Source of the DNA: Lachnospiraceae bacterium AM93-12TA | GTDB lineage: Bacteria > Bacillota > Clostridia > Lachnospirales > Lachnospiraceae | Length of the DNA stretch: 39,586 nt | Direction: 5' to 3' | Assembly: GCA_027698105.1 (NCBI GenBank) | Contig: JAQERH010000028.1 | Location: 1-39,586, forward strand | In this document: one piece after another, positions 4,835 through 36,555 of the stretch | Position numbering within the stretch: the stretch's first letter is position 1 | How the letters are laid out: each line of letters begins with the position of its first letter | Program-made: the position numbers and the translations under genes | The notes under the pieces: generated by a model | The model's database searches: none | What the model was told of the DNA's origin: nothing | What the model saw: the letters and a program-made list of their open reading frames with translations, nothing else

Positions 4835-4840
4835 AAGGCC

Positions 4841-7121: not shown

Positions 7122-7746
7122 CCAGCTCCTGGATCTCATTGAGAAAATGACAGGAATGGTATCCGTCGGCAGCAGCGTGATGAAACGCAGCTCCCAGAGG
7201 CAGAAATACTCTGCCATCCTTCTCATAATACCGTCCAAAGAGCACTACCGGATACAGCATCGGAGAATCGGAGTACGTATCACTGGCATATCCGGTAAAG
7301 CTCAGCCATGGTACACAGGAAACCGGACAGAAATTGTCCGGTTTCCCCAGTTTTGGCTTAATTCCTTTCTGATCCCTGTAAGTTTCCATATCCTTTATCA
7401 CTGCATCGTAAAAGGTCAGAAAATCCTCACTGTATTCGGTCCAGATGTCGGAAAAAGTCTTATCATCCTCATGAAAAATAGTGTAGGAGGGATGGCATTC
7501 ATCCCAATAGCCCAGACGGCCCTGGGCGTCTGTCTGCATTCTCATCTCCCGGTTCTGATTGACTGCCCTCATAATAATATAGATAAAAACCGGGTAAAAT
7601 TTTAGCTTCTGCTCCTTCACCTGGGCCAGCAGTTCTGTAATGTCCACCTGGATATTCAGATTATAGCGAACCTTCAGCAGATCCCTGTAATAATAATAGT
7701 GTTCCCGCCGCTCCCAGGTATCCATATCGATTAAATGAAACGCCAT
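7093..7746 (-). CDS. Chloramphenicol acetyltransferase-like (CatA-type) protein
   Basis: A 217-aa member of the CatA acetyltransferase family, trimeric enzymes that transfer acetyl from acetyl-CoA to chloramphenicol. The catalytic His motif is HHAAADGYH (about residues 187-195), and the active-site serine region PWLSFTGYA is present. Family landmarks KFYPVFIY, LGYWDECHPSYTIF and KTFSDIWTEY are all visible and the length is normal. It lies 28 bases after adenosine deaminase and probably shares its transcript. Chromosomal homologues of this type are common in Clostridia and many are not proven to confer resistance, so drug inactivation should not be assumed. The 3' end overlaps the convergent membrane-protein gene by 29 bases. 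Confidence 0.88.
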   Translation of the reverse strand: MAFHLIDMDTWERREHYYYYRDLLKVRYNLNIQVDITELLAQVKEQKLKFYPVFIYIIMRAVNQNREMRMQTDAQGRLGYWDECHPSYTIFHEDDKTFSDIWTEYSEDFLTFYDAVIKDMETYRDQKGIKPKLGKPDNFCPVSCVPWLSFTGYASDTYSDSPMLYPVVLFGRYYEKDGRVFLPLGAAFHHAAADGYHSCHFLNEIQELAKTFRLPRR

Positions 7747-7774
7747 CTCTGTTCTCCCTTCTGTCTTTTATCTA

Positions 7775-8839
7775 TTATCTTCCAGATACCGGTTCCGTTC
7801 TTCTCCAGAACTCTTCCAGCTTCCCAAGAAGCGTCTTTTTTACCTCTTCCCCGGCAAATGCTGCTCTGACTGCATTCTCTGTCATCTGAACTGCTTCCTC
7901 CTTTGTCACGCCAAACTGGCTGTGAAGCAGGAACAGCTCCTCTGTCATGCTGGTTCCCGATACGGTCCTGTTGTCCGTATTAACTGTAACGGCAAGTCCC
8001 TGATCCAGAAAGCGCCTGATAGGATAATCGCTTCTATTTTCCACTGCCTTTGTCTGAAAATTGCTGGTGGGGCACATTTCCACAGCAATTTTTCTTTCCC
8101 TGCACAATTTCTCTATCTCCTCTGCCCCGGCCATGGCAATGCCGTGTCCGATGCGGCGGGCTCCCATCAGCACACAGGTGCGTACATTTTCTGCACTGTG
8201 GCATTCTCCCGCGTGGATGGTAAAGGGAATTTCCATCTCAGCAGCCAGAGAAAACATCTTATTATGCAGCTCCGGCGGATAGGCCTTTTCATCACCTGCC
8301 ATATCAATTCCGCAGACGCCGTCTCCCAGAAATTTCTCTGCCAGAGCCGGAATCTCCAGGTTCTTCTCCGGCTCAAAATGACGCATTCCGCACAGCAGGA
8401 TTCCTGTATGCATTCCCAGATCCGCTTCTGCCTGTTTCAGTCCGTCCCTGACAGCCCGCACTACATCCTCCTGGGTAAAGCCTTCATGAGCAGAAAAAGC
8501 CGGAGCAAAGCGAAGCTCCTGGTAAATCGTTCCCTCCTCAAAGGCGGCTTTTGCTGTGTCATAGGCAGCTGTGTAGAGGGCGTCATAGGTCTGCAGGCAG
8601 GAAATCGGCAGCGAAAAGCAGTCCAGATATTCTTTTAAAGTTCTGCAGTCTGCCGGAACGGTCAGAGAAGCGGCTAACTCCTCCTCTGTTTCAGGAAGCG
8701 AAAGACCTGCCTGCTTTCCCAGCCTTCTCACTGTATGTCTGGGCAGAGAACCGTCCAGGTGGCAGTGAAGCTCTGCCTTGGGCAGGGCCTGAAACCAATC
8801 CCTCTCCTTTTTTTCTGCTTCTGTATATTCATGATTCAT
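7775..8839 (-). CDS. add: Adenosine deaminase
   Basis: A 354-aa metal-dependent hydrolase of the ADA family that deaminates adenosine and deoxyadenosine to inosine and deoxyinosine in purine salvage. Visible motifs are HCHLDGS (zinc-binding HxH, residues 25-27), HAGE with the catalytic Glu, the GHG triad, CPTSN and VNTDNR with the metal-binding Asp. I start at ATG 8839, which follows AGGAGG with 8 bases of spacing; an upstream ATG at 8878 is in frame but lacks a site. A consensus promoter lies at 8896-8924. The CAT-like gene follows 28 bases downstream. Confidence 0.95.
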   Translation of the reverse strand: MNHEYTEAEKKERDWFQALPKAELHCHLDGSLPRHTVRRLGKQAGLSLPETEEELAASLTVPADCRTLKEYLDCFSLPISCLQTYDALYTAAYDTAKAAFEEGTIYQELRFAPAFSAHEGFTQEDVVRAVRDGLKQAEADLGMHTGILLCGMRHFEPEKNLEIPALAEKFLGDGVCGIDMAGDEKAYPPELHNKMFSLAAEMEIPFTIHAGECHSAENVRTCVLMGARRIGHGIAMAGAEEIEKLCRERKIAVEMCPTSNFQTKAVENRSDYPIRRFLDQGLAVTVNTDNRTVSGTSMTEELFLLHSQFGVTKEEAVQMTENAVRAAFAGEEVKKTLLGKLEEFWRRTEPVSGR

Positions 8840-8895
8840 CGCAGTATCCTCCTGTCTCTTGTACATGATTCCCATCATTCTTGTTTTTTCTGCTT

Positions 8896-8924
8896 ATCAT
8901 ACCATTTATTGTCTGACTGTACAA
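8896..8924 (-). promoter_or_regulatory. Sigma-A promoter of add
   Basis: Minus strand TTGTAC (8919-8924), 17-base spacer, TATGAT (8896-8901), about 50 bases upstream of the chosen add start. Confidence 0.65.
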
Positions 8925-9058
8925 GCAGTTAAAACTGACCTTTTTTCAATTTGCTGATGCATTCTTCTTTAAAATATCTTATACTAGGAAACAGTATTGC
9001 ACCGATTCAGGAAAACTTCTGGCCAAATCGGCGCCAAAATCAGGAGGACAGCTCATAT

Positions 9059-22159: not shown

Positions 22160-22741
22160 CTAATCTTCAAACAGAATAAATGCTCTGGAAGCGGGATTGA
22201 CCTTTACAGTAATATCTCTTACTGCTTCCAGCCGGTAGCTGGCAAAGCTCTTGTTTTTCAAATCCTCAATGATCTGAGCCTTGGCCTCCATCCAGATGGG
22301 AAAGTCTGTATAGCTTCTCCAGTTCAGAACCAGACTTCCCTGAACAGCCTGTTTCTGTTCTGTCTCCTGAGTATCTTTTACAGAGCCTTCCTCTTCAAAG
22401 GTGTCCTCCTCAAGCTCTGTAAAGTGAAGAAATGGCTCTGCCAAATCTGGATTACAGGTAATTTCAAACCGCACTGTTCCCTCCGGAACCGATGGATCCT
22501 CCAAAAGCTCCAGTACATCCTGCACATAGTAGCTGTACTGGCTGGGAAAAATCTGTACTGCCCCCTTTTCTGGTGAAAACTCATAATCAAGATTTGTCTT
22601 TGTCATATTCTCCTGCCCCAGAACGCGCTCCCCCAGATAGGTGAAGGAAGAATATTCTCCAATCGCAGTACCTGCTCCGATACCGCTTACCAGCACTCCG
22701 GCCAGAAATGTTCCCAGCAAAATTTTCTGTACTCTACGCAT
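22160..22741 (-). CDS. Membrane-anchored protein of PadR-HAAS operon, function unknown
   Basis: A 193-aa protein with an N-terminal hydrophobic segment (residues about 6-28, KILLGTFLAGVLVSGIGAGTA) and an extracytoplasmic, acidic, beta-rich remainder without a motif I recognise. It overlaps the HAAS-domain gene by 8 bases, so the two are translationally coupled. In similar operons the third gene is often an adhesin-like beta-helix protein; this one is short and I cannot confirm that relationship. No clear terminator follows before degV, whose coding starts 113 bases downstream. Confidence 0.7.
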   Translation of the reverse strand: MRRVQKILLGTFLAGVLVSGIGAGTAIGEYSSFTYLGERVLGQENMTKTNLDYEFSPEKGAVQIFPSQYSYYVQDVLELLEDPSVPEGTVRFEITCNPDLAEPFLHFTELEEDTFEEEGSVKDTQETEQKQAVQGSLVLNWRSYTDFPIWMEAKAQIIEDLKNKSFASYRLEAVRDITVKVNPASRAFILFED

Positions 22742-23564
22742 AGTATCTGTCCTCCTCTTCCTGCCTGTCGGGAATTTCCTCCTTGTTTCGATTCCGTCTC
22801 CATAGAAATGTCAGACCCAGACCAGCCGCTGAAAACAGGCTTAGATTCACTCCCACAGCTCCAATGGCTGCTCCGGCCAGAGGATACCCTTGAAACAGCA
22901 GGACTGCCAGCACTCCCAGGCCGAACAGGCTAAAGAGGCCAAAGCTTCCGCAAATCAGAGCAAAGAAAATCCAGAATACGTTCCACCCTGCCTTAGTGCA
23001 CCACAGCGCCACAGTCCAGATGTTTCGGCAACACCAATGCGCCATCCTCACACTCTGTATAAACAGCCGCCGGAAAAAATATCCCATCCTTCTCCACAGA
23101 CGGTTCGCCTTTAAGCCCATGGAATATAAAAATCCATTGCTGCTTCCTGCATTTTCTCTTTCTTTTTTCCTGGGCGCCTCTTCCTGGGAAACAAATGTCT
23201 TTTTCCTGCCTAAAAGCTTAAAAAACCAGGCCCTGAACCGCATGATCTGTCTTCGCGCAGCCTGTCGGCCAGAATCCCACAGCCGGGCCAGACGATGCCA
23301 GAGGCTGCTTTTTTCTTTTGCTTCTCCTTTTTTCTCTTCACTGTTCCCGGCTTCATAATCTGCTCTCACATGATAGGCTTCCAAAATCTCTGCTGTCAGT
23401 TCTTTCCGATTGCCAAACTCGGCAATCGCCTCCTCTTCTGTCAGGCCGCTCTTCACCTTCATATCAATATGCTGCTCATACTCATCCATAATGTCATTCA
23501 GCTCTGTCTCCTGAAGCACGGAAAGCGATGATCTGAGTTCTTCTAAAAATGTCTTTTTATCCAT
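22734..23564 (-). CDS. HAAS (DUF1700) domain membrane protein
   Basis: A 276-aa protein with the N-terminal HAAS signalling domain (DKKTFLEELRSSLSVLQETE...DEYEQHIDMKVKSGLTEEEAIAEFG, residues about 2-50). A basic linker follows (about 65-160), then two or three transmembrane helices (about 178-255). HAAS proteins are typically encoded with a PadR regulator, as here, and are thought to relay an envelope signal. The gene overlaps padR by 8 bases and the downstream gene by 8 bases, giving a compact three-gene operon. Confidence 0.85.
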   Translation of the reverse strand: MDKKTFLEELRSSLSVLQETELNDIMDEYEQHIDMKVKSGLTEEEAIAEFGNRKELTAEILEAYHVRADYEAGNSEEKKGEAKEKSSLWHRLARLWDSGRQAARRQIMRFRAWFFKLLGRKKTFVSQEEAPRKKERENAGSSNGFLYSMGLKANRLWRRMGYFFRRLFIQSVRMAHWCCRNIWTVALWCTKAGWNVFWIFFALICGSFGLFSLFGLGVLAVLLFQGYPLAGAAIGAVGVNLSLFSAAGLGLTFLWRRNRNKEEIPDRQEEEDRYYA

Positions 23565-23877
23565 GTCTGCACTCCTCCAAAAACTGTCCTACTCTTTCTG
23601 TCAGCTGATTCCACTCCGCCTCCAGGCTGTCACGGTACAAGATGCCTGCTGCTGTCAGGTGGTAATATTTACGCGGAGGACCTTCTGTGGACTCCCTCAG
23701 ATACGTTTCAAAATAATGCTCATTAGTCAGACGCTTTAAAAGCGGATAAATCGTACCCTCATTCACATCCACTACTTTCGATACCTCCTCCACCAGCTCG
23801 TAGCCGTACCGATCCCTGACGCGGACGGATTCCAGTACAATCAGCTCCAGAACACCCTTTTTAAACTGTGCGTTCAT
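23557..23877 (-). CDS. PadR family transcriptional regulator
   Basis: A 106-aa PadR-type winged-helix repressor. The signature runs from KKGVLELIVLESV through YGYELVEEVSKV and NEGTIYPLLKRL (residues about 35-52) to PPRKYYHLTAAG. It is the first gene of the PadR-HAAS operon, behind a promoter whose -10 lies in an AT-rich palindrome (23914-23928). Autorepression through that site is the likely control mode. Confidence 0.92.
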   Translation of the reverse strand: MNAQFKKGVLELIVLESVRVRDRYGYELVEEVSKVVDVNEGTIYPLLKRLTNEHYFETYLRESTEGPPRKYYHLTAAGILYRDSLEAEWNQLTERVGQFLEECRHG

Positions 23878-23950: not shown

Positions 23951-24005
23951 GTAGCAGAGCGCGTCTCCTTTAAAAATATTTCATAAGAAAGGACGCTCCC
24001 GGCTG

Positions 24006-25277
24006 TCATCTGATAGAAACTGTTTTACTGATATTGATATAGATTTCATATTCTTCGCTGCCAGGTACACTGTAACGTGGAATATGAACCGGCCTGCGCC
24101 CTGACTGCATGATAAATACCTGATTCAGCGGAGCATAAAACATCTCTTCACAGGAACGCCCCATACACCTGGAGATGCTTTCGCAGGACTTATAGTCAAA
24201 GCCGCCTGGAAAATAGCAGTACACCGCACAGTTCTGCCGAATCCGGGAAGCCTCTTCCTTATAAACGGCCTCCAGCTGCTGATCCGACTGGAGCAGCATG
24301 ACTGCTGAAATTCCTGCAGAGTGGAAAAGGCCCATATCCTCTGCCCATCCCTGAATAGGAGCATTGCAGACAAAGGGATCAAAAATAAACCGGACTTCTC
24401 TGGGCAGTTCTCCGTCTGGACATTCTGCGGCATACTGAAGCAGCTGGCGTACCGTATCACGGTAAAATAAATTGGCATAATGCTGCCTGGAACGGTCGGA
24501 AGGGCTGGCAATGATAATCAGCGCTTCTTTGCTGTCTGCAAAATTTTTAACATGAAAGCGGGGCTTTGCTGCCATCATCTTCCGGATGGATTCAGGAAAT
24601 ACTGTGCTTAAAGCAGATGCCAGAATATCTCTGATGCGGGACGCCGCCTCATAAGGCAGACTCCGCCAGGCTCTGTATTCCCTGGCCGCGCTGCATCCCC
24701 TGACGGCCTCTTCCAGCTGCTCAAACAAGCTGTCTAACGGCGTTTTTACAGAATGCCCATTCTCCCTCTCCACAGGGATGAGCTGATCGAAAAAGCCCAG
24801 TACGGCAGGCATATTGACTCGTACCGCAGTCCCCAGAATACCTTCCGCAGCCATAAGGACTGCGGCAATCAGACTGTTCAGCAGCTGTCCTGCCTTCGCC
24901 TTCTCATAATTATCCTCTTTCCCAAACGCCTCATCCATCACATCTGCTGCCAGCGCTTCGATATCTTCATAGCCCTGCACAGACTGTATCGGATCAAAGC
25001 TTATGGTACTTTTGTCTGGGTGGTTCAGATTCATCATGCGAACCATATAGCCTTTCGTCTCCAGATACCTGGCTATGGTATACCCCTCTCGTTCTCTGGC
25101 GCAGCTTATAATCGGATTGCTGTGCTCTGACAGCATAAGTGTCGGAAAGACAACGCTGGTGCTTTTTCCGCAGCCGCCTGTACCGACAATCAGCGCATTT
25201 CCATTGGGCCTTGTTTTTCCAATCTCATCTCCAGACAGAATACAGCCTTCTCCTAAAACAAGCGGATCTCGTTTCAT
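24006..25277 (-). CDS. VirD4/TraG-like ATPase with degenerate Walker B
   Basis: A 423-aa protein matching the cytosolic ATPase domain of type IV coupling proteins, which pump DNA or protein into a secretion channel. Walker A is GTGGCGKST (residues 32-40). The family MLLQSDQQLE sensor segment (about 327-336) and a C-terminal YCYFPGG region are present. The Walker B region reads FIFDPF at about 298-302: the Asp remains but the usual following Glu is Pro, so ATP hydrolysis may be impaired. There are no N-terminal transmembrane helices. No relaxase, VirB4/VirB6 or integrase is nearby. It is the last gene of a unit with a HicA-like protein and a STAND-derived module protein, so it may serve a non-conjugative role. 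Confidence 0.82.
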   Translation of the reverse strand: MKRDPLVLGEGCILSGDEIGKTRPNGNALIVGTGGCGKSTSVVFPTLMLSEHSNPIISCAREREGYTIARYLETKGYMVRMMNLNHPDKSTISFDPIQSVQGYEDIEALAADVMDEAFGKEDNYEKAKAGQLLNSLIAAVLMAAEGILGTAVRVNMPAVLGFFDQLIPVERENGHSVKTPLDSLFEQLEEAVRGCSAAREYRAWRSLPYEAASRIRDILASALSTVFPESIRKMMAAKPRFHVKNFADSKEALIIIASPSDRSRQHYANLFYRDTVRQLLQYAAECPDGELPREVRFIFDPFVCNAPIQGWAEDMGLFHSAGISAVMLLQSDQQLEAVYKEEASRIRQNCAVYCYFPGGFDYKSCESISRCMGRSCEEMFYAPLNQVFIMQSGRRPVHIPRYSVPGSEEYEIYINISKTVSIR

Positions 25278-25323
25278 CCTGACACCTCCCTTGACCCGTC
25301 TGCTTATCCCTGTCTTTTACTTT

Positions 25324-25566
25324 TTACAGCTCGATCAGCCTGATAATCTCAACACTGACATTTAATCCGGCCCTGGTATCAGAGGGTGTTTTTGCAAAGG
25401 TTACGAATCCTCCCAGCTGATCCTCTCTCTTTATTTTATAGTGCTTTCCGCAGCCGGAAACGATGAGGCCATATGATTCAATCATTTTAAGCATCGATTT
25501 GGTAATTCTCTTATAGCCTCTGAGCATATTTTTGATCTGTTCCTTTTCGCTTCTGCTCATTGTCAT
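25324..25566 (-). CDS. Small protein, possibly HicA-like
   Basis: An 80-aa basic protein lying 30 bases after the 536-aa module gene and 46 bases before the VirD4-like gene, with TAGGAGGAGAT directly before its ATG. The C-terminal half (LKMIESYGLIVSGCGKHYKI...FAKTPSDTRAGLN) resembles the small double-stranded-RNA-binding fold of HicA mRNA interferases, where a Gly-x-His motif is catalytic; here the corresponding residues would be GKHY. No HicB antitoxin follows. The similarity is weak and could be misleading; an unknown accessory protein is equally possible. Confidence 0.55.
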   Translation of the reverse strand: MTMSRSEKEQIKNMLRGYKRITKSMLKMIESYGLIVSGCGKHYKIKREDQLGGFVTFAKTPSDTRAGLNVSVEIIRLIEL

Positions 25567-25595
25567 ATCTCCTCCTACTCTGCTGTTTTACTGCA

Positions 25596-27206
25596 TCACA
25601 GGTACTCCTGTTCTGAGACCAGTCTTTCATCCACACCTGGGCATCCAATCCAGAAGCCTCCCGGCGTCGGCTCTCCCCGGTAAAATCCAATCACGCCGTT
25701 TTCGTGAAATACATAGCGGTGTACCGCCCCCTCTTCCAGTTCCAGCGCCCCGTCGTAAAAGCCGATCCAGCTCCGTTTGGCATAATCAGAAGTCTGGGGG
25801 CCCTGGCAGCAGCTGCTTCTGAGACGGCGCACTGCCTTTTTCTTTCCTGGAATCTCCCAGAAAAACGTCCGGATCTGGTCGCCGCGCATCTCGTCTCCCT
25901 CGCTCTCCACGTCTGCAAACTCAATCAGTGCAGCCCAGCATTTTGCCAGCGGATTTGTTTTTTCAGAAATCCTGACTGCCCGATCCTCTCTGACCCAGAC
26001 AATCTCCTCCTCCCGAAAGGAGCAGGGCGTCATGTCATCCTTCCCCTTCCTCTCTGTGAACCGCTGCCCGTCCGGATGACAAATCCTGGTTTCCGTTATC
26101 AGATATCGTTTTTTGCTGTCTGCTGCTTTTTCATAATCCTCCTGAAGACATTCTGTGCCTAGAATATCGCCTGTCTGTTCACCGGCCTCATAAAAGTGCA
26201 GTTCATCCGTCCCCTGTTCTCTGAAAAACAGATTCCAGGAAACACAGAAGCTCCCATTTACAGGCTCTGTGAGAGTCAGTTCAAGCGATGAGCCTCCGGG
26301 AGCAAACCGGGCTGCTTTGATCCTGATTCCTTCTGGAACCGGGATACAAAACTTTCCGTTTCTGTGGGTCCTGGCTCCTGAATGGGTGTGAAAAAATAAA
26401 ACTTCCTCTTCTGTACACATCATAAGAATCTCAGGGATATGGAGCGCACACACCGCCAGAACCGTTTTCTCCTTTGGAATGTCAGGAAAACTGCAGCCGC
26501 AGACAGTGAAATGCTTCCCATCTTTCATGCAGTAGTAATAAACAGCCCGGCTGATATTATCAAACATCGTAACCGGAACAGGCTCTGCCTTCGAGGCAAT
26601 CCACCAGACCCGGCCGTCTTCCAGTCCTTCATAGTGTTCCTGGAGCTTTTCGCGGACATCCATCCTTCTTTTCCACTCCTCTTCTGATACACCATAAAGA
26701 TTTTCCGGTCTCAGAAAGGCTCCCTTAAGGTTTGCGTAAAGCCCCACCGGACGTTCTGATACAAACGGCTCTCTCCACAGAGGCGGAAAATGCCGCTCAA
26801 GGCTGGGATGAGACAGGATCACTCCTGCCAGTGCTGTCCTTCTAAGATCCAGTCCTGAAAGGTCGAAACCGGAAAGATCCGGTCTCCCTGCTTCCCTTGA
26901 TATGCAGCAAAGTTTCGCCATTTCTACCAGATTCCTTTCTGCCCATCCATAATCCTGTTTCTCCTCAAGCCGCTTTTTTTCCCGCTCCACCGCCCAGGGG
27001 GAGGTAACCCGCAGCATGGACAAAAGCGTTTCAAACACAGGATTTTCGTTTGGCTGTTTATTCCAGCCTGATTCTGTATAAAAGGGCGTTGTCCCAGGCA
27101 GGCCAAGCTCTTCTCCTGCCGCCCGCAGCTCCTCGTCTGTCCACTGTCTCTCATCCAGCTGTCTCATCTTCTCTTTTAGTCCTTCCTCATCTAAATGCTT
27201 CCACAT
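25596..27206 (-). CDS. Stand-alone paralogue of the post-NACHT module
   Basis: A 536-aa protein with no enzyme motif I recognise. Its first ~175 residues are paralogous to the segment after the NACHT domain in the kinase-NACHT protein. Shared landmarks, in order, are LGLPG-TP, NENP, a CC pair, GRPDLSGxDLS-DL and GLYANL. The DLSGFDLSGLDL stretch is a minimal pentapeptide-like repeat. The rest (about 190-536) is beta-rich, with strands such as VWWIASKAEPVPV, TVLAVCALHIPEILMMC and GVIGFYRGEPTPGGFWIG, suggesting a degenerate propeller or jelly-roll. It begins after AAGGAGAATAGATT and lies downstream of a terminator, so it heads its own unit. It may be a decoy, regulator or second sensor for the STAND protein. 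Confidence 0.75.
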   Translation of the reverse strand: MWKHLDEEGLKEKMRQLDERQWTDEELRAAGEELGLPGTTPFYTESGWNKQPNENPVFETLLSMLRVTSPWAVEREKKRLEEKQDYGWAERNLVEMAKLCCISREAGRPDLSGFDLSGLDLRRTALAGVILSHPSLERHFPPLWREPFVSERPVGLYANLKGAFLRPENLYGVSEEEWKRRMDVREKLQEHYEGLEDGRVWWIASKAEPVPVTMFDNISRAVYYYCMKDGKHFTVCGCSFPDIPKEKTVLAVCALHIPEILMMCTEEEVLFFHTHSGARTHRNGKFCIPVPEGIRIKAARFAPGGSSLELTLTEPVNGSFCVSWNLFFREQGTDELHFYEAGEQTGDILGTECLQEDYEKAADSKKRYLITETRICHPDGQRFTERKGKDDMTPCSFREEEIVWVREDRAVRISEKTNPLAKCWAALIEFADVESEGDEMRGDQIRTFFWEIPGKKKAVRRLRSSCCQGPQTSDYAKRSWIGFYDGALELEEGAVHRYVFHENGVIGFYRGEPTPGGFWIGCPGVDERLVSEQEYL

Positions 27207-27282
27207 AATCTATTCTCCTTTGCATTTTCTTCCTGTTTGTTATGGATATCTTTACTTTAACCCTTCCCTTCCTCAAAACATT

Positions 27283-27309
27283 AAAAAAGACGGCAGTTAG
27301 CCGTCTTTT
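27283..27309 (-). terminator. Terminator after the kinase-NACHT operon
   Basis: AAAAGACGGC (27285-27294) pairs with GCCGTCTTTT (27300-27309) around AGTTA, with a TTTTTT run on the minus strand. It begins 14 bases past the PHP-like stop and separates the two accessory transcription units. Confidence 0.88.
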
Positions 27310-27322
27310 CAAAAATTTTTTA

Positions 27323-28006
27323 TCACAATTTTATCTGGTTCCTGTTTTCCAGCCATTTCGCTTCCAAGCCTTCACAGATTGTCATGGGAAACCTGTTATT
27401 CAGGCATATTCCTTCTCCCTCCCTGCAAAAGCCGCTGCCGGCTGAGGGAACTAAATGATAATACCTGGCTGTCTCTGCCAGCTTCTGGCGCTGCTGCTCA
27501 TCATATCCAGCGCACAGTACCTCCATTCCGCCCCTTCCCCTGGTACACTGGGCGAAATCTTTTACCAGCAAATCTCTGTCCCAGTCGTCAAGGCCCTGAT
27601 AATGGTACAGGTGGGCAAGTACCGGAACTCCGCCGGAAGCCAGGATTGCCTGACAGGCTCTGTAAAAGCTTAAAGGCCAGCGGGTTTCCTTTAATACTTC
27701 CTGCAGATTTGGATGTTCCGGATCCACATGGTACCCGACAATGGAAATCTCCTTCTGCTTTCCCATTGCCAGCGTATAGACGCAGGGAAGCTCCACACCG
27801 GGAATCATTTTCACCTGATAAGTTTCGCTCAGGGAAATCAGCTGGCTTTTAGAGCAGACTGCCTTGCGATCTGTAATGGAAATTGCTCTGATATTCCCCT
27901 CCTTTACACAGGCTTTTACCAGTTCTTCGGCTGTATATGAGCCGCCTGAGCGCGTTGTATACAAATGAAAATCACAGTAGGCTCCTCTCCCGCTTTTGCT
28001 ATTCAT
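27323..28006 (-). CDS. PHP-fold protein with lost metal ligands
   Basis: A 227-aa protein of the PHP (polymerase and histidinol phosphatase) fold from ATG 28006, which follows GGAGGATGGGATT and overlaps the kinase-NACHT stop by 8 bases. The fold is clear: DFHLYTTRSGGSYTAEELV, ISITDR, IPGVELPC, VPVLAHLYH and a terminal SAGSGF. Compared with active members, HxH is HLY (Tyr16), TDH is TDR (Arg47) and the final GSDxH is GSGFC, while His14, Glu72 and the AHLYH histidines remain. It is probably not a canonical trinuclear-metal phosphatase; a binding or regulatory role, or altered chemistry, is inferred. Its translational coupling to the STAND gene indicates a shared function. Confidence 0.8.
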   Translation of the reverse strand: MNSKSGRGAYCDFHLYTTRSGGSYTAEELVKACVKEGNIRAISITDRKAVCSKSQLISLSETYQVKMIPGVELPCVYTLAMGKQKEISIVGYHVDPEHPNLQEVLKETRWPLSFYRACQAILASGGVPVLAHLYHYQGLDDWDRDLLVKDFAQCTRGRGGMEVLCAGYDEQQRQKLAETARYYHLVPSAGSGFCREGEGICLNNRFPMTICEGLEAKWLENRNQIKL

Positions 28007-31000
28007 AATCCCATCCTCCGCTTCCAGGGCAGCCTGCCGTAAAGCCCAGCCAGCCCAGGGACTGATACACCATATCTGCTGCAAAATATGCGCCGGGCAC
28101 ATCCCACAGCTCCATTTTTATCTCTTCTTCCTGTGTCTTCCTCAGGCTGCCTCTTTCCAGCTCCCACTCCCAGATTTCCTCTGTCTGGCTGTCGTCTCCG
28201 CTTCGTCCCGGGTAGAAAATCTTCATCACGATTCTTTCTCCATCCTCCGTAAAAGCCGCCTTTAAAATCTCTGTCTGATGCCTGAATAAAGCTGCCATCC
28301 TCTTTTCATACAGAGAGTGTTTCTGGCTCCTGGCATCTGCAAAAAGCTGTCTCTTTTCGGCGTCCTCTTCCCCGGTGTCTGCTGAAAAAGCCTGAATGCA
28401 GGTTCCGTCAAAGGTGTAGACCAGCCTGGTTTCCCAGTCTGTGTACACAGCCAGCACAGGATCCGGACAGGGTTCCGGAAAGCAGAAGCCTCCCATGCGA
28501 AAACTCCTGCTTCCCGTCTGTTCCATGAAAACTGCCATGTGCAGCACAGGATCCATCACGGTCAGCCACTTCTGCCCGCCGGCTCTGGAAAGCCCTGCCC
28601 CGCAAAACGATATTCTTGCGCTTTTTCCCATAAAACGGTCGCTTTTCCTGTTCCTCCCCCATTCTGCGTATACCTCGCCGTCAATGGTCGAAAGCACCTG
28701 CAGAGAATATTCGCCCCCCAAAGGCCCGTCGTCGTAGTTCTGTCTATAAACTGCCGTCATGGTTTCTCCAAGAGAAATCCTTCTTATTTTCCCCTCTGCC
28801 TCGTCCATCCATTGATAGGACTGGCATTCAGCTCCTGGGGTGAAGGTCCACAGAGCCAGCTTTCCTTTTTCTTCTCCTGTCCCCTTCCATCCACCTTCGT
28901 TTGTAAAACCAGATTCGTAGGCAATCATCACCTGACGTCCAGCTGCCTCCATAAAACCATTCCAGCTGGTTTCTTTATCCGGCAGAAAGTTCTCTTCTGC
29001 CCGCCCGCAGGCCCATTCCGGAACATAGAAAAGCCCGCTTCCGTCACAGTCTGAAAGAAATCTCTCCCCTGTCGTTTCTCCTGTCACCGGATCCAGACAG
29101 ATACATCTTCCTGTTCCTTTCTCACCTTTTAAAAATATGTAGACTGCCTTTCCGTTGCGGTCTGAAGCAAAGAGAAATTTTCCCTGTTTTCCTTCCTCCT
29201 CATCCAGCGAAAAGAGCCGCCTGCATCCGTCAGAGGTCAGACGCCAGATCTCCCGCCCAGTTCCGGCCAGCACGCTTCTTTCGTCCGCCATATCAAACTG
29301 CAGACTGGAACCATCTGTTTCCGGCATCCATCCCTGTGCCACAGAGATTCGTTCAGCCTGAAAAATCCCATATACAGCCTCTTTCAGAGGCAGAGAGACT
29401 GCTGACAGCCTGTTTTTATCATCCAAAAGCACCAGGCCCAGCCGTTCTCCGGAAAGCGGCCCTGCAAACAGAACCTGCTCTTCCTTCCAGACTGTACTGC
29501 CAAAGTGTCCCGTCTCCCGTTCTGTAACCCGCAGTTCTCCTGATTCTTCTAAATCCTCCTGCCAGATATAAGTTCCGCTGATGCTGTAGCCAAAGCTGGC
29601 AAAGGGACTGCACGTACCATAGAGTTTTTTTGTATCATCTGCCTGATTCCACTCTTCCAGATACCAGACTCCTCCCAGGGTCTCCCGGCTAACCAGCAGC
29701 ACAGGCTCTGACGGGTGGCAGACCGCGCGTCCTATCATGGGATCTTCCGGAAGCAGCAGCCGCTCTCCAAATCCCAGATCCGTATCTGTCAGATTGGCAT
29801 AGAGACCTCTTCTCCTGCTCTCTATTTCAGAAAATCCTGGGACCTGCCTCGAAAAAACTGCTCTCTCAATCCCTGAACTGCTTAAATCCATATCCGACAG
29901 ATCAAGTCCCGACAGATCCGGCCTTCCCCCTGTGCCTGTCCCCTGGCAGCAGGCCTGGTACATGCCAAACAAATTTGCCTCCCCGGCATTCCAGGGCTTA
30001 AATTCCTCCCCGCAGCTTCTGCGGAGTATCTGCAGCTGTGCGTAAAACCGGCTGGATCGCTTTAAAAGCCGCAGCATCCGTTCCATTGCCGGATTTTCAT
30101 TGAATCCCCGCTCCCACCTGGTTCCGTCAAATACAGGTGTTTCTCCGGGCAGCCCCAGTATCTCCCCTGCAAACCGGAGCACACTGCTGTCCCAGACCTG
30201 TCTGTCAAAGGACTGATGGAACAAATCTGCGGCAGTTTCCGGTGAAAGGAGCGTAATGGCTTTCAAACGGTTCACCACCGCCGATGCCGCGAAATAATCT
30301 CTGTAATGCTGATGGAGAAATGAGACGGTATCTGCTCCGCTTTTCACAAGAATTCCCAGCTGCTCTGTAAGAATTTCCAGACATTTCTCCATTCCCTCCT
30401 TCCGAATACGCTCTGCAAGCACAGAAAAATCGCTTCCTGAACCCAGAACACGGCACAGTCTGGAACCTGCTCTGTCTGCCAGAGCTGCATTCTGTACCGA
30501 CTTCTCTAATACAGAAAGAGCCTCCTCCTCTCTCAGAAAAAACCGCCCCTGCTCTGCCATAAAAAAGCCCAACTCCGGCAGCATTGTCTGAAGTACAAAC
30601 CGGCGGACTGCCTGCACAGTCACTCCCTTTGCATAATACTTATCGCCATACTTTTCTTCAGAAAGATTCCGTTCTCCATAATCTCCGGCACCGCTTACAG
30701 ATTCTGCCCGCTCAAAAAAATACCGTTCCAGAAGTTCCCCTGCATTTTTTATCTCTCCTCTGTTTGAAAGAGACTGATAAACAGAAAGAAAAAATGGTAT
30801 GTGAAGCACCTTCCACAAGGCCTGGCAGTTTCTGCTGAAGTCTGTCTGTTCTTTCGGCTGCCCCAAGGGCTGAACAAGGGCTTTTTTCACCGTCTCGTCA
30901 GACAGATCTTCTACATAAAAGCGCTTCAGCTTTTCTGCCCTGATCCGTTTTTCATCCTGTCTTCCAGTAAGAATCAGCCTGAGATTCTGCGCCCTGGAAA

Positions 31001-32645
31001 GGTAATCATTCACCGTTTCCAGAAATTCTCCCTTTGCCTGGCTGTCTGAAAACACCATTTCATTCAGGCCGTCCAGCACTGCCAGATACCTTGGAATGCC
31101 GTCAGCCGGTTTCATGAAAAAACGTCTGGAAAAAGCTGCTGCCGCAGGATCCTCCGGTTCAGAAAGCCCGCCCGGAATTCCCTTAAAAAGCCCCGCCAGA
31201 TACCGTTCCAAAAACTGACCGCCGCCGTCAGCTGGAAGGCGGTTCAGCTCCAGATAGACTGGAATGACTGGTACATGGTATGTCTCCAGCATATCGAGCG
31301 CTGCCAACACAGAGGTGGTTTTTCCCCCTCCTCCCTCGCCAATTACGAAAAAAGAACCAGCGCTCTGTGACAATGCCTGCACCAGAGGCAGGGAAGGGGT
31401 CTTCCCTTTGCCTTCCTGCAGCTTTTCTCTCCCACTGGGCAAAAGTCCAGAATCAATGGCATATCCCAGCCGTCCTTCTGTCCGCACCCGACGGTACTGT
31501 TCCCAGGCCGTTTCCTGCAGCTCCTCTTCTGACACTGCCTCTCCCTCAATGAGGGCCAGCACCTCCGACAGCTTGCGCTCCAGCAGTTCTATGCTGCCGT
31601 ATCGGCGTTCCTTTTCTTCCAGCCCCCGCTCCATCACCTGGGCCAGGCGCAGAAAAACAGATTCTGAAATCTTCCCCGGAGTCTTTTCACTGGCCAGCCC
31701 AAACTCGCCTCCCAGCCGGACAGGCCTGTGGCGTTTCAGACACTGGAAGAGAACTTCTCTGTTTACTCCGTCAAAGGGCGCTTCTCCTGTAATAAAATAC
31801 CAGAGACAGGCCGTCACGGAGTACACGTCAGCTGCCGCCTCACATGGTCCGCTGTCAAATCGTTCCGGCGCTCCGAATCCGTCCGTCACCCAGAGAGCCA
31901 TGTCTTCCATACCGTCCTCATCAGCCTGGCTGCCAATTTTTCCGGCGCAGGCAAAATCAATCAGCCCCACCTGCGGATTCCGTTCACAAAGCTCTGCTGC
32001 CCCTGGAAACCGGACGCGGCCCACTGTTTCCGCCTCACCGGTAAACGCCCCCAGAAGCAATACATTGCCCGGACTGATATCCCTGTGGCAGAAGCCTCCT
32101 TTTTTATGCAGGCCTTTCACCACACGGCAAAGCTCCAGAACAGTCCGTATTTTTCCTGCCAGACTCAGCTGACAGCCCTCTTCTGTAAAGGCACGCAGAG
32201 ACATGGAAGGGGGACAGGAGTAAAATACTCCGTAGAGATTGCCTGTCATCCTGTCCCTCACAATTTTCGTCACAGGATAAACCCCTGAAACCCCTTCCTT
32301 CAGAATCTGGTTCCCAACCCTCTGTTCCCGCAGAAATTCCCGTTCCAGAACAAGAAGTTCAGCCTGTCCGTCAAAGGATTCTGTCCCTTTAACTGCCCCA
32401 TTTTCCTGCCGGAAATAACCTTCCTCTTTCGGATACAGCTCTTTCAGATAGACAGGAACTGGCTCCTGTTCCCAATCCTGTCTGCCGTCCGGCCCGCCAT
32501 GAAGATCTGCCCTTCCTGGCAAAAGTTCCTCCCCATAATAGGTAAGCGCTGTTCCACCGCCGCTGGCCGGACGAAGAATCCGGAAGGTCTGCCCATCCTC
32601 TGCCTGAATCACCGTCCCTTTCTGCAAATACCTTCTATCTTCCAC
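27999..32645 (-). CDS. Ser/Thr kinase-NACHT STAND protein with long C-terminal sensor
   Basis: A 1548-aa multidomain protein. Residues ~15-370 form a protein kinase: a glycine-rich loop, VYLKELYP with Lys68, HRDISPGNVL with Asp189 and Asn194, IDFACAG with Asp230 (DFA instead of DFG), and GAPE at ~258-261. A NACHT NTPase follows: Walker A GEGGGGKTT (436-444, Lys442), Walker B LAVLDGLNEM (Asp525), sensor LILTGRQD and the end motif FLHQHYRDYFAA (~776-787). Next comes the module shared with the 536-aa protein (~810-955), then ~590 beta-rich residues resembling a degenerate propeller. Such STAND proteins are switches that oligomerise on ligand binding, and bacterial NACHT proteins include antiphage sensors. 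I start at GTG 32645, preceded by AGGGAAGGGATTTA and overlapping the upstream stop; an ATG at 32807 would overlap that gene by over 170 bases. Confidence 0.88.
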   Translation of the reverse strand: MEDRRYLQKGTVIQAEDGQTFRILRPASGGGTALTYYGEELLPGRADLHGGPDGRQDWEQEPVPVYLKELYPKEEGYFRQENGAVKGTESFDGQAELLVLEREFLREQRVGNQILKEGVSGVYPVTKIVRDRMTGNLYGVFYSCPPSMSLRAFTEEGCQLSLAGKIRTVLELCRVVKGLHKKGGFCHRDISPGNVLLLGAFTGEAETVGRVRFPGAAELCERNPQVGLIDFACAGKIGSQADEDGMEDMALWVTDGFGAPERFDSGPCEAAADVYSVTACLWYFITGEAPFDGVNREVLFQCLKRHRPVRLGGEFGLASEKTPGKISESVFLRLAQVMERGLEEKERRYGSIELLERKLSEVLALIEGEAVSEEELQETAWEQYRRVRTEGRLGYAIDSGLLPSGREKLQEGKGKTPSLPLVQALSQSAGSFFVIGEGGGGKTTSVLAALDMLETYHVPVIPVYLELNRLPADGGGQFLERYLAGLFKGIPGGLSEPEDPAAAAFSRRFFMKPADGIPRYLAVLDGLNEMVFSDSQAKGEFLETVNDYLSRAQNLRLILTGRQDEKRIRAEKLKRFYVEDLSDETVKKALVQPLGQPKEQTDFSRNCQALWKVLHIPFFLSVYQSLSNRGEIKNAGELLERYFFERAESVSGAGDYGERNLSEEKYGDKYYAKGVTVQAVRRFVLQTMLPELGFFMAEQGRFFLREEEALSVLEKSVQNAALADRAGSRLCRVLGSGSDFSVLAERIRKEGMEKCLEILTEQLGILVKSGADTVSFLHQHYRDYFAASAVVNRLKAITLLSPETAADLFHQSFDRQVWDSSVLRFAGEILGLPGETPVFDGTRWERGFNENPAMERMLRLLKRSSRFYAQLQILRRSCGEEFKPWNAGEANLFGMYQACCQGTGTGGRPDLSGLDLSDMDLSSSGIERAVFSRQVPGFSEIESRRRGLYANLTDTDLGFGERLLLPEDPMIGRAVCHPSEPVLLVSRETLGGVWYLEEWNQADDTKKLYGTCSPFASFGYSISGTYIWQEDLEESGELRVTERETGHFGSTVWKEEQVLFAGPLSGERLGLVLLDDKNRLSAVSLPLKEAVYGIFQAERISVAQGWMPETDGSSLQFDMADERSVLAGTGREIWRLTSDGCRRLFSLDEEEGKQGKFLFASDRNGKAVYIFLKGEKGTGRCICLDPVTGETTGERFLSDCDGSGLFYVPEWACGRAEENFLPDKETSWNGFMEAAGRQVMIAYESGFTNEGGWKGTGEEKGKLALWTFTPGAECQSYQWMDEAEGKIRRISLGETMTAVYRQNYDDGPLGGEYSLQVLSTIDGEVYAEWGRNRKSDRFMGKSARISFCGAGLSRAGGQKWLTVMDPVLHMAVFMEQTGSRSFRMGGFCFPEPCPDPVLAVYTDWETRLVYTFDGTCIQAFSADTGEEDAEKRQLFADARSQKHSLYEKRMAALFRHQTEILKAAFTEDGERIVMKIFYPGRSGDDSQTEEIWEWELERGSLRKTQEEEIKMELWDVPGAYFAADMVYQSLGWLGFTAGCPGSGGWDYE

Positions 32646-35475
32646 TAAATCCCTTCCCTCTCTGCAAAAATTTTTCTTCTTCTCCTTTAAATTCCTGACT
32701 GTATATTCTGTCCAGGCGTTCCTGCAGTGCTCTGCCCATATGGCTGGATAATTCACCGTTTTTTTCAAGCCACCACAAAGCCTCCTCCAAAAGCCTTCTG
32801 TCTGCATGAATCCGTTCCCACATCAGCTTCTGATTCTGCCGTCCAAAATCCTTCTCTGAAAGTCCCCAGCTGTAATCTGCATCCTCCCAGTCTCTGACTG
32901 TCCCAGGAATCTCTCCTGTCTCTTCCATCTCCTGTCTATGAACCTCTCTGGCAGAGGGCCTGTACTGTTCGCAGCCAAAGACTTTCCGGTATGCCCGAAG
33001 ATTCATATTGCGGATGCCAGAAGCAAGAATCCAGCTCTGCACACACCTGGAAACCTGGTATTTCGCTTCCTCATATTCCCTGCCAAAAGCACCTGCTTCT
33101 TGGCAAGCCGCCAGCACGCAGAGAAGAAATTCCAGCGCCGCCTCTGCCTCCAGAGCTGCCGGACTCTGTGAAAGAAACTTCGCTTTTTTTAATATTTCTG
33201 ATAAATTTTGAAAAATCTGAAGCATTTCAACTTTCTGTTCTTCTCTGTTTTCCATGTTTCTTTCTGCTAAATTCCTGCTCAGATGTTTTAAATGAAGCTC
33301 TGCCACCTCTCCTTTTTGTCTATCTTCCGGAAACTCCACAGAAAAAGTCTCCCCCAGTTCCATGGTTTCCTGCCATAGCCGGAAAACTTCTTTTGTTCTT
33401 CCAATGGCAGAAGATGCAGAAAATCCAGCTTTCCACACACAGCCCCATATCTCCCGCCGCTCTGTCATCGTTCCGTCTTCAAAATCTCCTGTATAGGGAC
33501 CGTAAAACAGCTCCCTGCCCAGATCTGAAGCTTTTCTGCCCTCAGACTCAAAAGAAAGGCACAGCAGATCAAACCGTTTTAAATCATAAGCTGCCGGAAA
33601 ATACAGAAATTTTTCCACCGAGTCTAAAATTTCAGCACATAATAAAGACGGATCAGAGGAGAGCCGGACACCGGCTGTCTGGATCCCTGCTTCATCCAAA
33701 GCAAGATCCTCAAAACCAGGCCGAAGCTCCGGCGGCAGCTCCAGCAAAAGCTCCCCACACTCTTCCCAGTACTCCTCCCCGCTGAAACCTTCCTCCCAGG
33801 AACACTCCAAATCCCATAAATCCAGATAAATCCGCTTTATTTTCTGTCTGTAGGATATTATCAGATAAGCCATAGCCTCCTGCCGGTTAAACAGATCAAG
33901 CCCCGGACTTCCTGAAAGCTCCATTCCCTCTGAAAGCTTTTCTGCTGTATCAATTCCTGCAGCCAGAAGCACCTTCAGAATGGTCTCCCTTTTATAAGCC
34001 TGGTAAGGCCCTTTCTTTCCCAAAATCCAATGCTGGTAATTATTTTTCAGCAGATGAAACAAAACAGAGCTGTCCTGCCTTTTCCCTCCGAATACGGACG
34101 CTCCGTTTTTCAGAACCGGGAGCATCAGATCCGTCATCAGGCGGCTGTTGGAGGTTTCCGCCTCAATCAGCCGGTTCACTGCCTCTCCGCCGTATGAAAA
34201 CGACAGCCTTCCATCTGTCTTTCCCGGATCCCTGTCCCCATTTGTAAGGCAGAGGCTTCTGTATCTTCTCGGATTCACGGTCCGTTCAGACGGCCTCCTT
34301 CTCTCTGTTAAGAATCCCTGATTCTGCCCTCCTTTTCCCGCCTGGGCATACAGCCGCATAATAGCCGAATACCTGCGCCAGTGAGCCTCACTGCAAAAGT
34401 CTGGAATTTCTCTGCAAAAGGAGTCAAACGCGGTATCCAGATCTGCTGCAGAAGCCAGCGTCAGCCGGTTTATCTGGTCTGCTGCTGCCCGCGTTCCCCG
34501 GTTCGCTCTTGTCAGTTCATTGCGCCTGCGAAGTTCCTGAATCCCCTGCTCTCTTTTCTCTTTGCTCCTGTATCCCATATGGCGGCCAGCGCTTGACAGC
34601 ACTGCCAGAAGCCGCTTCATATCCTCCAGAGTTTCCCCATTAAATACATCGATCTTCTCCAGGCATTCCACGGAAACGGGAGAAAGAAAGGTACATTTTC
34701 CGCCATCTGAAAAAATCCTTTCCCAGAGCCTTTTATAGTGGCTCTGAAACTCTTCCAGAGGCTCGCTGTTTTCCCAGTCAGGTTCTTTAGCCTCCAGTTC
34801 TACCTGCCTCACCTCTAAATCCAGCCATCTGAGAAGCTTTCTTCCATACTGCTCAAAGCGGCTGCAGACTTCTGCATAAGATATCTGTCCCTCCGGATGG
34901 GTCTCGTTCCACTCCATAAAAAATAAAAATACAGCTTCTTTTAAATCCAGCTGGTAGAGGCGCCTGTATTCATCCCTGTCTTTTCTCCGGCTGAACTCTT
35001 CCAGCATCTCTGTACTCTCCTCCACTGTAAACCCCAGAACCATCATCACATAGAGCACCACATCCCGGCGTTCTGCCGAATACGCTTTTTCAGGAAGATA
35101 TGGGAAAGAATCTTCTGAGCACCAGAGCGAAAGCGTCTGTTCCCACATCTCTCTGGTGAGAAATGTCTCCTCTGACTTATTCCGCTCCTCACTCAGTCCC
35201 CAGCGCATCAGCGCCTTCTGACTTTGCTGGTCTGAAAGCCTTCCGGCAGCCCAGAAAACGGCGTCCTCCGCCGTTTCCCCTCTCCCTTCCTCTGCTTCCT
35301 GACGCCTGTAAACCTTCAAAAGTGTTTCCCGAAACACCTTTTCCCGGCGTTTCTGTCTTCCCAGTTCTCTATAACAATCCATAGAAAAATCATAAAAATC
35401 TTTCATGGGTGTCAGCATTGCATCGTATATTTCTCTCTGCCGGGCATTCCGGCTCTTACTTTTTCTTTCTGCCAT
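32635..35475 (-). CDS. Large protein of unknown function, first gene of STAND operon
   Basis: A 946-aa soluble protein with no domain I recognise, no transmembrane helix and no signal peptide. It is highly charged and predominantly helical by composition, with repeated Trp-rich helices (for example YRQKIKRIYLDLWDLECSWEE and LLEEALWWLEKNGELSSHMG). Its end overlaps the kinase-NACHT start by 11 bases, so the pair is translationally coupled and presumably works together, for example as a kinase substrate, adaptor or effector. The ATG lies 12 bases after AAGGAG, a long spacing that suggests modest expression. Upstream there is a TATAAT at 35521-35526 without a convincing -35. Confidence 0.8.
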   Translation of the reverse strand: MAERKSKSRNARQREIYDAMLTPMKDFYDFSMDCYRELGRQKRREKVFRETLLKVYRRQEAEEGRGETAEDAVFWAAGRLSDQQSQKALMRWGLSEERNKSEETFLTREMWEQTLSLWCSEDSFPYLPEKAYSAERRDVVLYVMMVLGFTVEESTEMLEEFSRRKDRDEYRRLYQLDLKEAVFLFFMEWNETHPEGQISYAEVCSRFEQYGRKLLRWLDLEVRQVELEAKEPDWENSEPLEEFQSHYKRLWERIFSDGGKCTFLSPVSVECLEKIDVFNGETLEDMKRLLAVLSSAGRHMGYRSKEKREQGIQELRRRNELTRANRGTRAAADQINRLTLASAADLDTAFDSFCREIPDFCSEAHWRRYSAIMRLYAQAGKGGQNQGFLTERRRPSERTVNPRRYRSLCLTNGDRDPGKTDGRLSFSYGGEAVNRLIEAETSNSRLMTDLMLPVLKNGASVFGGKRQDSSVLFHLLKNNYQHWILGKKGPYQAYKRETILKVLLAAGIDTAEKLSEGMELSGSPGLDLFNRQEAMAYLIISYRQKIKRIYLDLWDLECSWEEGFSGEEYWEECGELLLELPPELRPGFEDLALDEAGIQTAGVRLSSDPSLLCAEILDSVEKFLYFPAAYDLKRFDLLCLSFESEGRKASDLGRELFYGPYTGDFEDGTMTERREIWGCVWKAGFSASSAIGRTKEVFRLWQETMELGETFSVEFPEDRQKGEVAELHLKHLSRNLAERNMENREEQKVEMLQIFQNLSEILKKAKFLSQSPAALEAEAALEFLLCVLAACQEAGAFGREYEEAKYQVSRCVQSWILASGIRNMNLRAYRKVFGCEQYRPSAREVHRQEMEETGEIPGTVRDWEDADYSWGLSEKDFGRQNQKLMWERIHADRRLLEEALWWLEKNGELSSHMGRALQERLDRIYSQEFKGEEEKFLQRGKGFSGR

Positions 35476-35577
35476 TTTACGTCACGGCTCCTTTTCACGC
35501 TGCTTATAATATCATGAACTATTATACAGACTATCCAACGCAAAATATTAAAAAAGAGGGGGGATAGGCTGCAGCTA

Positions 35578-35606
35578 TTTTCAAAAAGAATATTCTGTGC
35601 TACACT
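35578..35606 (+). promoter_or_regulatory. Possible promoter of the CDF transporter
   Basis: TTTTCA (35578-35583), 17-base spacer, TACACT (35601-35606). Both hexamers match consensus at four of six positions, just ahead of the gene's leader. Confidence 0.4.
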
Positions 35607-35643
35607 GGTACACATGACTTTATTATTAGGAAGGTGACTTATC

Positions 35644-36555
35644 ATGTATTCCCATTCACAGGAATGCGCTGAAGAATTATTGGAAAAACGAATCTTACTA
35701 ATTTCCCTGATTTCCGGCATTGGTTTTGTTATTGTCGAATTAATTTATGCCATATACAGCCATTCCCAGTCCACTCTGATGGACGCGCTGTATGACGCTT
35801 CTGAGCTGGTGTTTATTATCCTGCTATTATTTTTGACGCCTTTGTTCCACCGCCCTATTTCTGAGAAGCATCCTTATGGATTTTTTCAGCTGGAATCCTT
35901 TTTTATTTTAATCAAAAATATTATGCTGATTTCAGTAACTGCCAGCGTTCTGACAAGCGTCGTTGAAAAGCTGTTTTCAGGCGGCAGCGCCGTCAATAAA
36001 GGGCAGGTCTCCCTGTTTCAGCTGGCCCTCGGACTGGTCAGTTTTCTGATTTTGCTCCTTATGAAATGGATGAGCCAGAATATCTCCTCTCCTACTGTAA
36101 AAGCAGAGATACTTGGATGGAAAATGGATGTAGCATACAGCCTTGGAATGTCTTTTGCATTTTTTATTGCAGTGCAGCTGCAGCATACTCCTCTGGCCTT
36201 TCTTTCCCCGTATTTTGACCAGATTACTGCCATCCTGATTATGCTTTTTATGATCCCGGAAACCATTAAAATGTTAATTGAAACCTTCAGGGAACTGTTT
36301 CTGTTTTCTCCTGATCAGCAGACAGTCACAAGGATCAAGGATATCTCCAGAAAAGTTCTGGAGAGCTATTCCTTTACTCCTGTGTTCTATGACATTGCCC
36401 GAACCGGGCGGAAAATGTGGATCGCTGTCTATTTTTACGTTTCCACAGAAACCGTATCTGTACAAAGCATCCGGGAAGCAGGCAGCTGCTTAAATGAACA
36501 GATTGCCCAGGAATTCCCCAATACCTCCTGCGAAATCATCCTGGACAATCACTAG
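35644..36555 (+). CDS. Cation diffusion facilitator family transporter
   Basis: A 303-aa membrane protein of the CDF (cation efflux) family, proton-coupled exporters of divalent metals. About six transmembrane helices are visible (residues ~16-38, 46-66, 85-108, 120-140, 155-180, 185-205), followed by a cytoplasmic domain of ~95 residues. The helix 2 metal site is DALYD and the HPYGFFQLE motif follows it. In helix 5 the usual H/DxxxD site reads GWKMD, so one ligand seems lost, which raises doubt about the transported ion. The start follows AGGAAGGTGACTTATC. It diverges from the STAND operon without evident functional connection. Confidence 0.85.
   Translation: MYSHSQECAEELLEKRILLISLISGIGFVIVELIYAIYSHSQSTLMDALYDASELVFIILLLFLTPLFHRPISEKHPYGFFQLESFFILIKNIMLISVTASVLTSVVEKLFSGGSAVNKGQVSLFQLALGLVSFLILLLMKWMSQNISSPTVKAEILGWKMDVAYSLGMSFAFFIAVQLQHTPLAFLSPYFDQITAILIMLFMIPETIKMLIETFRELFLFSPDQQTVTRIKDISRKVLESYSFTPVFYDIARTGRKMWIAVYFYVSTETVSVQSIREAGSCLNEQIAQEFPNTSCEIILDNH

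Follow-up and report, generated by a model that had tools for sequence, protein, structure and literature searches.

What is a protein kinase fused to a NACHT-type NTPase doing in Lachnospiraceae bacterium AM93-12TA, and do the five genes beside it belong to the same system? The fusion is encoded on contig JAQERH010000028.1 (assembly GCA_027698105.1), analysed here as a single stretch of 39,586 nucleotides (nt), hereafter the window. Six minus-strand open reading frames (ORFs) within positions 24006-35475 make up the locus and are arranged as two units. Unit 1 carries the genes for a 946-residue (946-aa) protein, the kinase-NACHT protein and a PHP-fold protein; unit 2 carries those for a 536-aa protein, a small HicA-like protein and a VirD4-like ATPase. 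A first-pass annotation of the bare sequence had listed the same six genes, all of which are present in an ORF check, with two starts revised. It had read them as a candidate STAND (signal transduction ATPases with numerous domains) signalling or defence locus. The signalling part of that reading is upheld by the kinase effector, the NACHT-type switch, the C-terminal region and a set of relatives built on the same chassis, and there is little doubt that the architecture is that of a STAND switch acting through a kinase. That the locus serves in defence is a further step, and stays conditional throughout what follows.

The kinase-NACHT protein (1548 aa; 27999..32645, minus strand) begins with a Ser/Thr kinase domain, for which Pfam Pkinase scores over its cut-off (E 2.7e-10), in agreement with the annotation. 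The protein has a lysine in LKELYP (residue 67), HRD (187), IDF (229) and APE in GAPERF (258), which we take to be the ATP lysine and the other catalytic motifs of a kinase. Because these motifs are present, and their columns invariant in a three-sequence alignment of the window protein with its homologues P0004 and P0005, the kinase is probably active. When the whole protein is scanned against PADLOC, the 25 matches listed of 28 all lie inside the kinase region (e.g. PD-T4-6, mad6).

The NTPase region follows. Searched alone in Pfam it matches AAA_22 (E 4.6e-4) and NACHT (E 0.052), both under cut-off, so that the NACHT call falls short in the window protein by Pfam's own standard but gains support from alignment to three relatives, L003, L004 and L005. 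A P-loop at residue 436 (GEGGGGKTT, fitting GxxGxGKT) aligns with two relatives. LDGLNE at 524 and LTGR at 559, presumably the Walker B and sensor-1 elements, fit the patterns hhhDGhNE and TxR and are likewise aligned with relatives. The motifs GEGGxGKT, LDGxNE, TxR and H..(Y/F)RD(Y/F)FxA are common to the window protein, L003 and L004. Behind the NTPase comes a post-NACHT module that contains a DLSG (pentapeptide-like) element, and the last 693 residues have no match in Pfam, repeats of the TPR, WD40 and LRR types included. The long C-terminal region is presumed to be the sensor.

The three relatives show what stays and what changes on this chassis. L003, the only record in the plasmid collection that the kinase-NACHT protein matches, holds a Haliscomenobacter WD40 protein whose annotation is caspase family (30% identity over 403 columns, BLAST E 1e-22). 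L004 (MT836118.1) encodes a NACHT protein with a different, unassigned N-terminus (23% over 573 columns, BLAST E 6e-19) that passes the Pfam NACHT cut-off (27.1 vs 26.7 bits). It aligns over residues 420-926, and its BLAST alignment takes in the post-NACHT segment and extends to a DLSG-type element. L005 (IMG/VR contig 3300010261_000140) was returned by a viral-contig scan with the NACHT-segment alignment. It encodes a trypsin-like-NACHT protein (22% over 636 columns, BLAST E 4e-21; Trypsin_2 E 3.4e-12; NACHT under the Pfam cut-off), and its alignment reaches the same DLSG-type element (residues 245-833 vs 380-933); a rescan with the L005 protein yields only the same contig. L004 and L005 thus share with the window protein the NACHT, the post-NACHT segment and the DLSG-type element while their N-terminal domains differ. 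Because the N-terminal domain varies (kinase in the window, caspase by annotation in L003, trypsin-like in L005) and the NACHT chassis stays, the set may be read as effector exchange on one chassis, a signature of STAND signalling. The collections lead back to the same few records: the L004 NACHT protein again matches the L003 record, which also contains a second NACHT-annotated protein, and in the phage collection the kinase-NACHT and L005 proteins each match one record, L004. The L004 contig bears a tyrosine integrase and the L005 contig serine recombinases, as mobile cargo would.

Further details of the two contigs are as follows. L004 is a contig from human faeces, deposited under the title "UNVERIFIED: Bacteriophage sp.", a phage or other mobile element, on which the 1579-aa NACHT protein with its DLSG-type element occupies 469-5208 and the tyrosine integrase is aboard. 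On L005 the trypsin-like-NACHT gene (7137-11021) is found with two serine recombinase genes (4299-4940 and 4931-6211) and an amidase/glucosaminidase gene (2867-4159), and the next gene encodes a 492-aa protein whose SpoVG-like match is under cut-off. A PHP match on L005 (E 0.007 over 50 residues) is regarded as chance.

The genes of unit 1 are packed closely. The 946-aa protein (32635..35475, minus strand) is predicted to be nearly all-helical, at low confidence, with helical-repeat fold matches at background level and no assigned family. The kinase-NACHT gene had been started at ATG 32807, 173 nt inside the 946-aa gene; homologues P0004 and P0005 have the same start as GTG 32645 (their N-termini there read MEYRRYL and MEDRSYL), which gives the 1548-aa product and reduces the overlap to 11 nt. 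At its other end it overlaps by 8 nt the PHP gene (227 aa; 27323..28006, minus strand), whose start is ATG 28006, position 28012 not being a start codon. Because the genes overlap, the three are very probably translationally coupled. The annotation had invoked gene overlaps for the locus as a whole, and this holds in unit 1 but not in unit 2, where 29 and 46 nt separate the genes and a purine-rich stretch precedes each start.

Homologues of three of the proteins were sought among 5.8 billion proteins clustered at 90% identity, each search scoring only the 7,993-7,995 candidates that shared most words, which undercounts distant relatives. The 946-aa protein finds three clusters (96, 72 and 35% identity) and the 536-aa protein three (99, 86 and 33%). 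The kinase-NACHT protein also finds three, of which two are kept (97 and 76%) and the third, P0006, is rejected as spurious (25% over 13% of the query, with only kinase domains in its Pfam list). Since P0002, a relative of the 946-aa protein, and P0005, a relative of the kinase-NACHT protein, are both listed with a longest contig of 11,156 nt and source lgn, the two seem to share one contig, which suggests that the genes are kept together as neighbours in a relative too. Wider scans returned little. Two genome-contig scans, one starting from the alignment of the 946-aa protein (65 pattern matches) and the other from the HAAS protein in the flank (64), confirmed no relative; viral-contig scans with the locus proteins or alignments, the HicA-like protein included, gave no confirmed relative other than L005; the 946-aa, 536-aa, PHP and HicA-like proteins are without match in the plasmid collection, and the DNA of 24000-36000 is without match in the phage collection.

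The third product of unit 1 was said to be a PHP-fold protein lacking key ligands, and it is so on two lines of evidence, NCBIfam matches under cut-off (RNaseRnm, E 5e-21; nside_bi_sphtase, E 1.6e-19) and alignment to two solved chains, 9etk (E 9e-12) and the 5'-3' exoribonuclease 7ug9 (E 5e-12). The likeness to RNase AM / RNM lies in the fold and in these alignments; the difference is that HSH has become HLY, SDG SGG, TDHD TDRK, HIVG SIVG and GSDFH GSGFC. The second His of HxH, the Asp of SDG, the His and Asp of TDHD, the His of HIVG and the Asp and His of GSDFH are lost, seven aligned positions that we take to be metal ligands. The first His, the Glu of GVE and the His of AHP are retained, and the full ligand set is not found. 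The protein is a probable pseudo-enzyme; an active PHP nuclease was rejected on the replaced ligand positions.

Unit 2 opens with the gene for the 536-aa protein (25596..27206, minus strand), which supplies a possible tie between the units. The module that it was claimed to share with the kinase-NACHT protein is indeed present (36% over 150 columns, E 2e-20). In a second comparison residues 15-160 match kinase-NACHT residues 811-952 (36%, E 9e-20; positions shift by one between comparisons), so the repeated stretch comprises about 145 residues immediately after the NACHT, without the NTPase. Profile comparison agrees (Prob 99.2, E 6e-19), the match being good in the N-terminal part only, and Pfam finds no P-loop or NTPase in the 536-aa protein. 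The description as a stand-alone copy of the module is therefore apt for residues 15-160, but the remainder, with no assigned family, is faintly sensor-like at most. A relative at 33%, P0009 (544 aa), hints that more of the protein resembles the sensor: its residues 201-301 weakly match window kinase-NACHT residues ~1352-1444 (E 8.9e-4, or 0.001-0.003) and also match P0005 (E 2.3e-4). The structure model of the 536-aa protein (pLDDT 39.2) is too poor for use. Because P0009 likewise stands alone, as does a homologue of similar length at 86%, the 536-aa protein appears to be maintained, and is not debris or a chance fragment. On adjacency and the shared module, the two units would be linked as one system.

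A number of observations weigh against the interpretation of the locus as a STAND system for defence. The NACHT of the window protein scores 13.8 bits with Pfam PF05729, against a curated cut-off of 26.7. Its NACHT segment alone matches 0 PADLOC families at E <= 0.1, and PADLOC 2.0.0, we assume, contains Avs models. The kinase-NACHT profile, compared by hhalign with the single sequences L003, L004 and L005, gives Prob 0.1 or less, though BLAST matched them. These three back only the chassis and not the gene set, because relatives of the 946-aa, 536-aa, HicA-like and VirD4-like proteins are absent from them at E <= 0.01. Nothing points to rapid evolution of the sensor, in which identity between the window protein and P0005 (76.7%) is no lower than in the NACHT core (73.8%). 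A kinase beside an NTPase need not be an enzyme, because the survey in PMC7159879 found the catalytic residues disrupted in most kinase domains of its systems. The setting is of household genes and not a visible defence island: Pfam identifies PadR, HAAS, KARI, acetolactate synthase small subunit, aconitase-family and NUDIX genes in the flanks, as well as DegV, SpoIID-type, cation-efflux, HD and LysR genes. No tRNA is found at the window, and repeats are only short and imperfect, none of them bracketing the locus. Codon usage and GC appear to be like those of the flanks: correlations of the six genes with the flanks are 0.50-0.87 (lowest for the 80-codon gene; the PHP entry counted two codons too many) against 0.49-0.89 in a leave-one-out of the 16 flanking genes, and GC is 0.42-0.52 against 0.40-0.51. 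The lack of a tRNA and of framing repeats, together with the neighbour-like composition, gives no support to a recent insertion of foreign DNA.

Other features were recorded in the window. A group at 22160-23877 (minus strand; PadR, HAAS, then an overlapping 193-aa ORF that finds no match in Pfam) adjoins the locus. Elsewhere, all on the minus strand, are a 6S RNA (4642-4820; RF00013, 73.2 bits), a chloramphenicol acetyltransferase family protein (7093-7746; Pfam CAT, E 3.5e-67) and, at the far end and distant from the locus, an IS200-like transposase (194-649).

The alternative that best survives these points is a lineage-specific STAND kinase switch with a house-keeping or developmental task, answering to a cell-envelope, sporulation or stress signal instead of an invader. 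It would account for the chromosomal setting, with metabolic and sporulation-type genes around the locus, the neighbour-like codon usage, the even conservation of sensor and core, and the membership of the closest homologue clusters (23 sequences for the 946-aa protein, 28 for the kinase-NACHT protein, 19 for the 536-aa protein). It accommodates less readily the relatives that combine the chassis with a different N-terminus, two of which lie on contigs with an integrase or recombinases, and the very small number of relatives found overall. We regard it as possible but improbable.

Scarcely better placed is the explanation that the two units are unrelated neighbours, unit 1 being a STAND system and unit 2 a decayed or domesticated remnant of a mobile element that carries a STAND-derived piece. 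The terminator reported between the units is there, an intrinsic-terminator-like hairpin (27284..27310, minus strand; 11-pair stem with a T tail) in the intergenic gap, and it speaks for this explanation; the count of such sites in the window, 17 against 15.9 expected in shuffles, by itself proves nothing. The last gene, for a 423-aa protein (24006..25277, minus strand), encodes the VirD4/TraG-like ATPase that the annotation had named (Pfam T4SS-DNA_transf, E 4.3e-14). With the CD1115 family of VirD4 proteins it shares the ATPase core, at 27% identity to a single plasmid representative. Unlike them it lacks the N-terminal membrane part (about 110 residues, by comparison with one plasmid VirD4-like protein), has lost the Walker B glutamate (FDP, DP in place of DE) beside an intact Walker A (GTGGCGKST), and scores below the family cut-off (NF045973, 147.7 bits against 250). 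On these grounds an active coupling protein was rejected. Because Pfam names no relaxase among the 35 window ORFs scanned, the gene is not part of an intact transfer element. Its missing parts and the lack of a relaxase are what a remnant would show, but the 536-aa protein has stand-alone homologues at 86% and 33% and shares its module with the neighbouring kinase-NACHT protein, and decay of unit 2 beside an unconnected unit 1 is accordingly judged unlikely.

In the plasmid collection the VirD4-like protein matches 555 records, all at less than 60% identity, of which 442 are predicted conjugative. Separately, a 518-kb record named Monoglobus plasmid (L001, NZ_OY725736.1) has conjugative-transfer genes adjoining a predicted tet(O/32/O).

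Between the genes for the 536-aa and VirD4-like proteins lies that of the HicA-like protein (80 aa; 25324..25566, minus strand), a label that has one PADLOC match (E 6.7e-4, 17.5 bits) in its favour but none in Pfam or NCBIfam. A toxin-antitoxin-like arrangement, in which it would be the killer, the 536-aa or VirD4-like protein its restraint and the kinase-NACHT protein the trigger, can draw on that match and on the tight spacing of unit 2, but the match is weak and no HicB match occurs among the six proteins in Pfam, PADLOC or NCBIfam, which makes this arrangement very improbable.

How much of the locus is already known depends on whether the fusion or the gene set is considered. The kind of protein is known: PMC8195603 describes predicted counter-invader systems whose effectors include S/T/Y kinase, caspase and trypsin domains and whose central STAND NTPase may be NACHT-clade, and its predicted conflict systems also have active and inactive FtsK ATPases among their parts. 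The effector-NTPase-sensor layout is described in PMC10907252, and bNACHT, Avs and the systems of PMC8195603 share with the window protein an N-terminal effector, a NACHT-type NTPase and a long C-terminal region. The locus differs from bNACHT and Avs in its six-gene set with a 946-aa partner, a pseudo-PHP and a sensor-half paralogue, and its NACHT segment has no PADLOC match. The window kinase, unlike those disrupted in the PMC7159879 survey, keeps its catalytic motifs. What appears to be new is the gene set (the 946-aa partner, the pseudo-PHP, the sensor-half paralogue, the HicA-like and the soluble VirD4-like proteins), for which no matching title or abstract opening was found among the open-licence PMC papers listed.

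MADS, which consists of a methyltransferase with a MAD gene set, offers a further comparison: mad6 is matched at E 6.4e-15, within the kinase region alone, and mad8 at E 8.4e-4, over 96 residues that surround the P-loop. Unlike the MADS kinase, that of the locus is fused to a NACHT. Since none of the six proteins matches a methyltransferase in Pfam, PADLOC or NCBIfam, membership in MADS was rejected.

For the preferred reading, a STAND switch that acts through phosphorylation, the following mechanism can be proposed. At rest the NACHT NTPase and the C-terminal region would keep the 1548-aa protein closed. The trigger, most probably a product of an invader or some disturbance of a host process, would be sensed by the C-terminal region, perhaps with help from the 946-aa protein of the gene immediately upstream. 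NTP exchange would then lead to oligomerisation and bring the kinase domains together, and the kinase would phosphorylate partner or host proteins, leading to growth stop or cell death. The pseudo-PHP may be a structural or nucleic-acid-binding partner, and the 536-aa protein, as part of the sensor half without the switch, may compete for the trigger or present it and so tune the threshold. The sequence itself shows gene order and overlaps, the motifs of kinase and NACHT, the shared module and the replaced ligands, whereas sensing, oligomerisation, a defence purpose and the parts played by the 946-aa, 536-aa, PHP, HicA-like and VirD4-like proteins are inferred. The full mechanism, with its role in conflict, stands in our judgement at an even chance.

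A bolder version of the STAND interpretation assigns the genes to two tiers: a phosphorylating switch with the 946-aa protein as scaffold, a separately transcribed, switchless sensor half acting as decoy or threshold-setter, and two catalytically disabled partners that recognise nucleic acid and no longer cut or move it (the pseudo-PHP and the soluble VirD4-like protein without its Walker B glutamate). We consider it a rather unlikely version. If it is true, bacteria would possess an immune module controlled by "dead" versions of its own sensor and of enzymes typical of invaders.

That few relatives were found may explain the absence of the locus from defence-gene libraries. If confirmed, the kinase-NACHT system would provide a test case for phosphorylation as a bacterial NLR-like output, and its stand-alone sensor-half paralogue would be a possible built-in regulator. 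It would also establish a NACHT chassis with a post-NACHT DLSG-type element on which kinase, trypsin-like and other N-termini are swapped.

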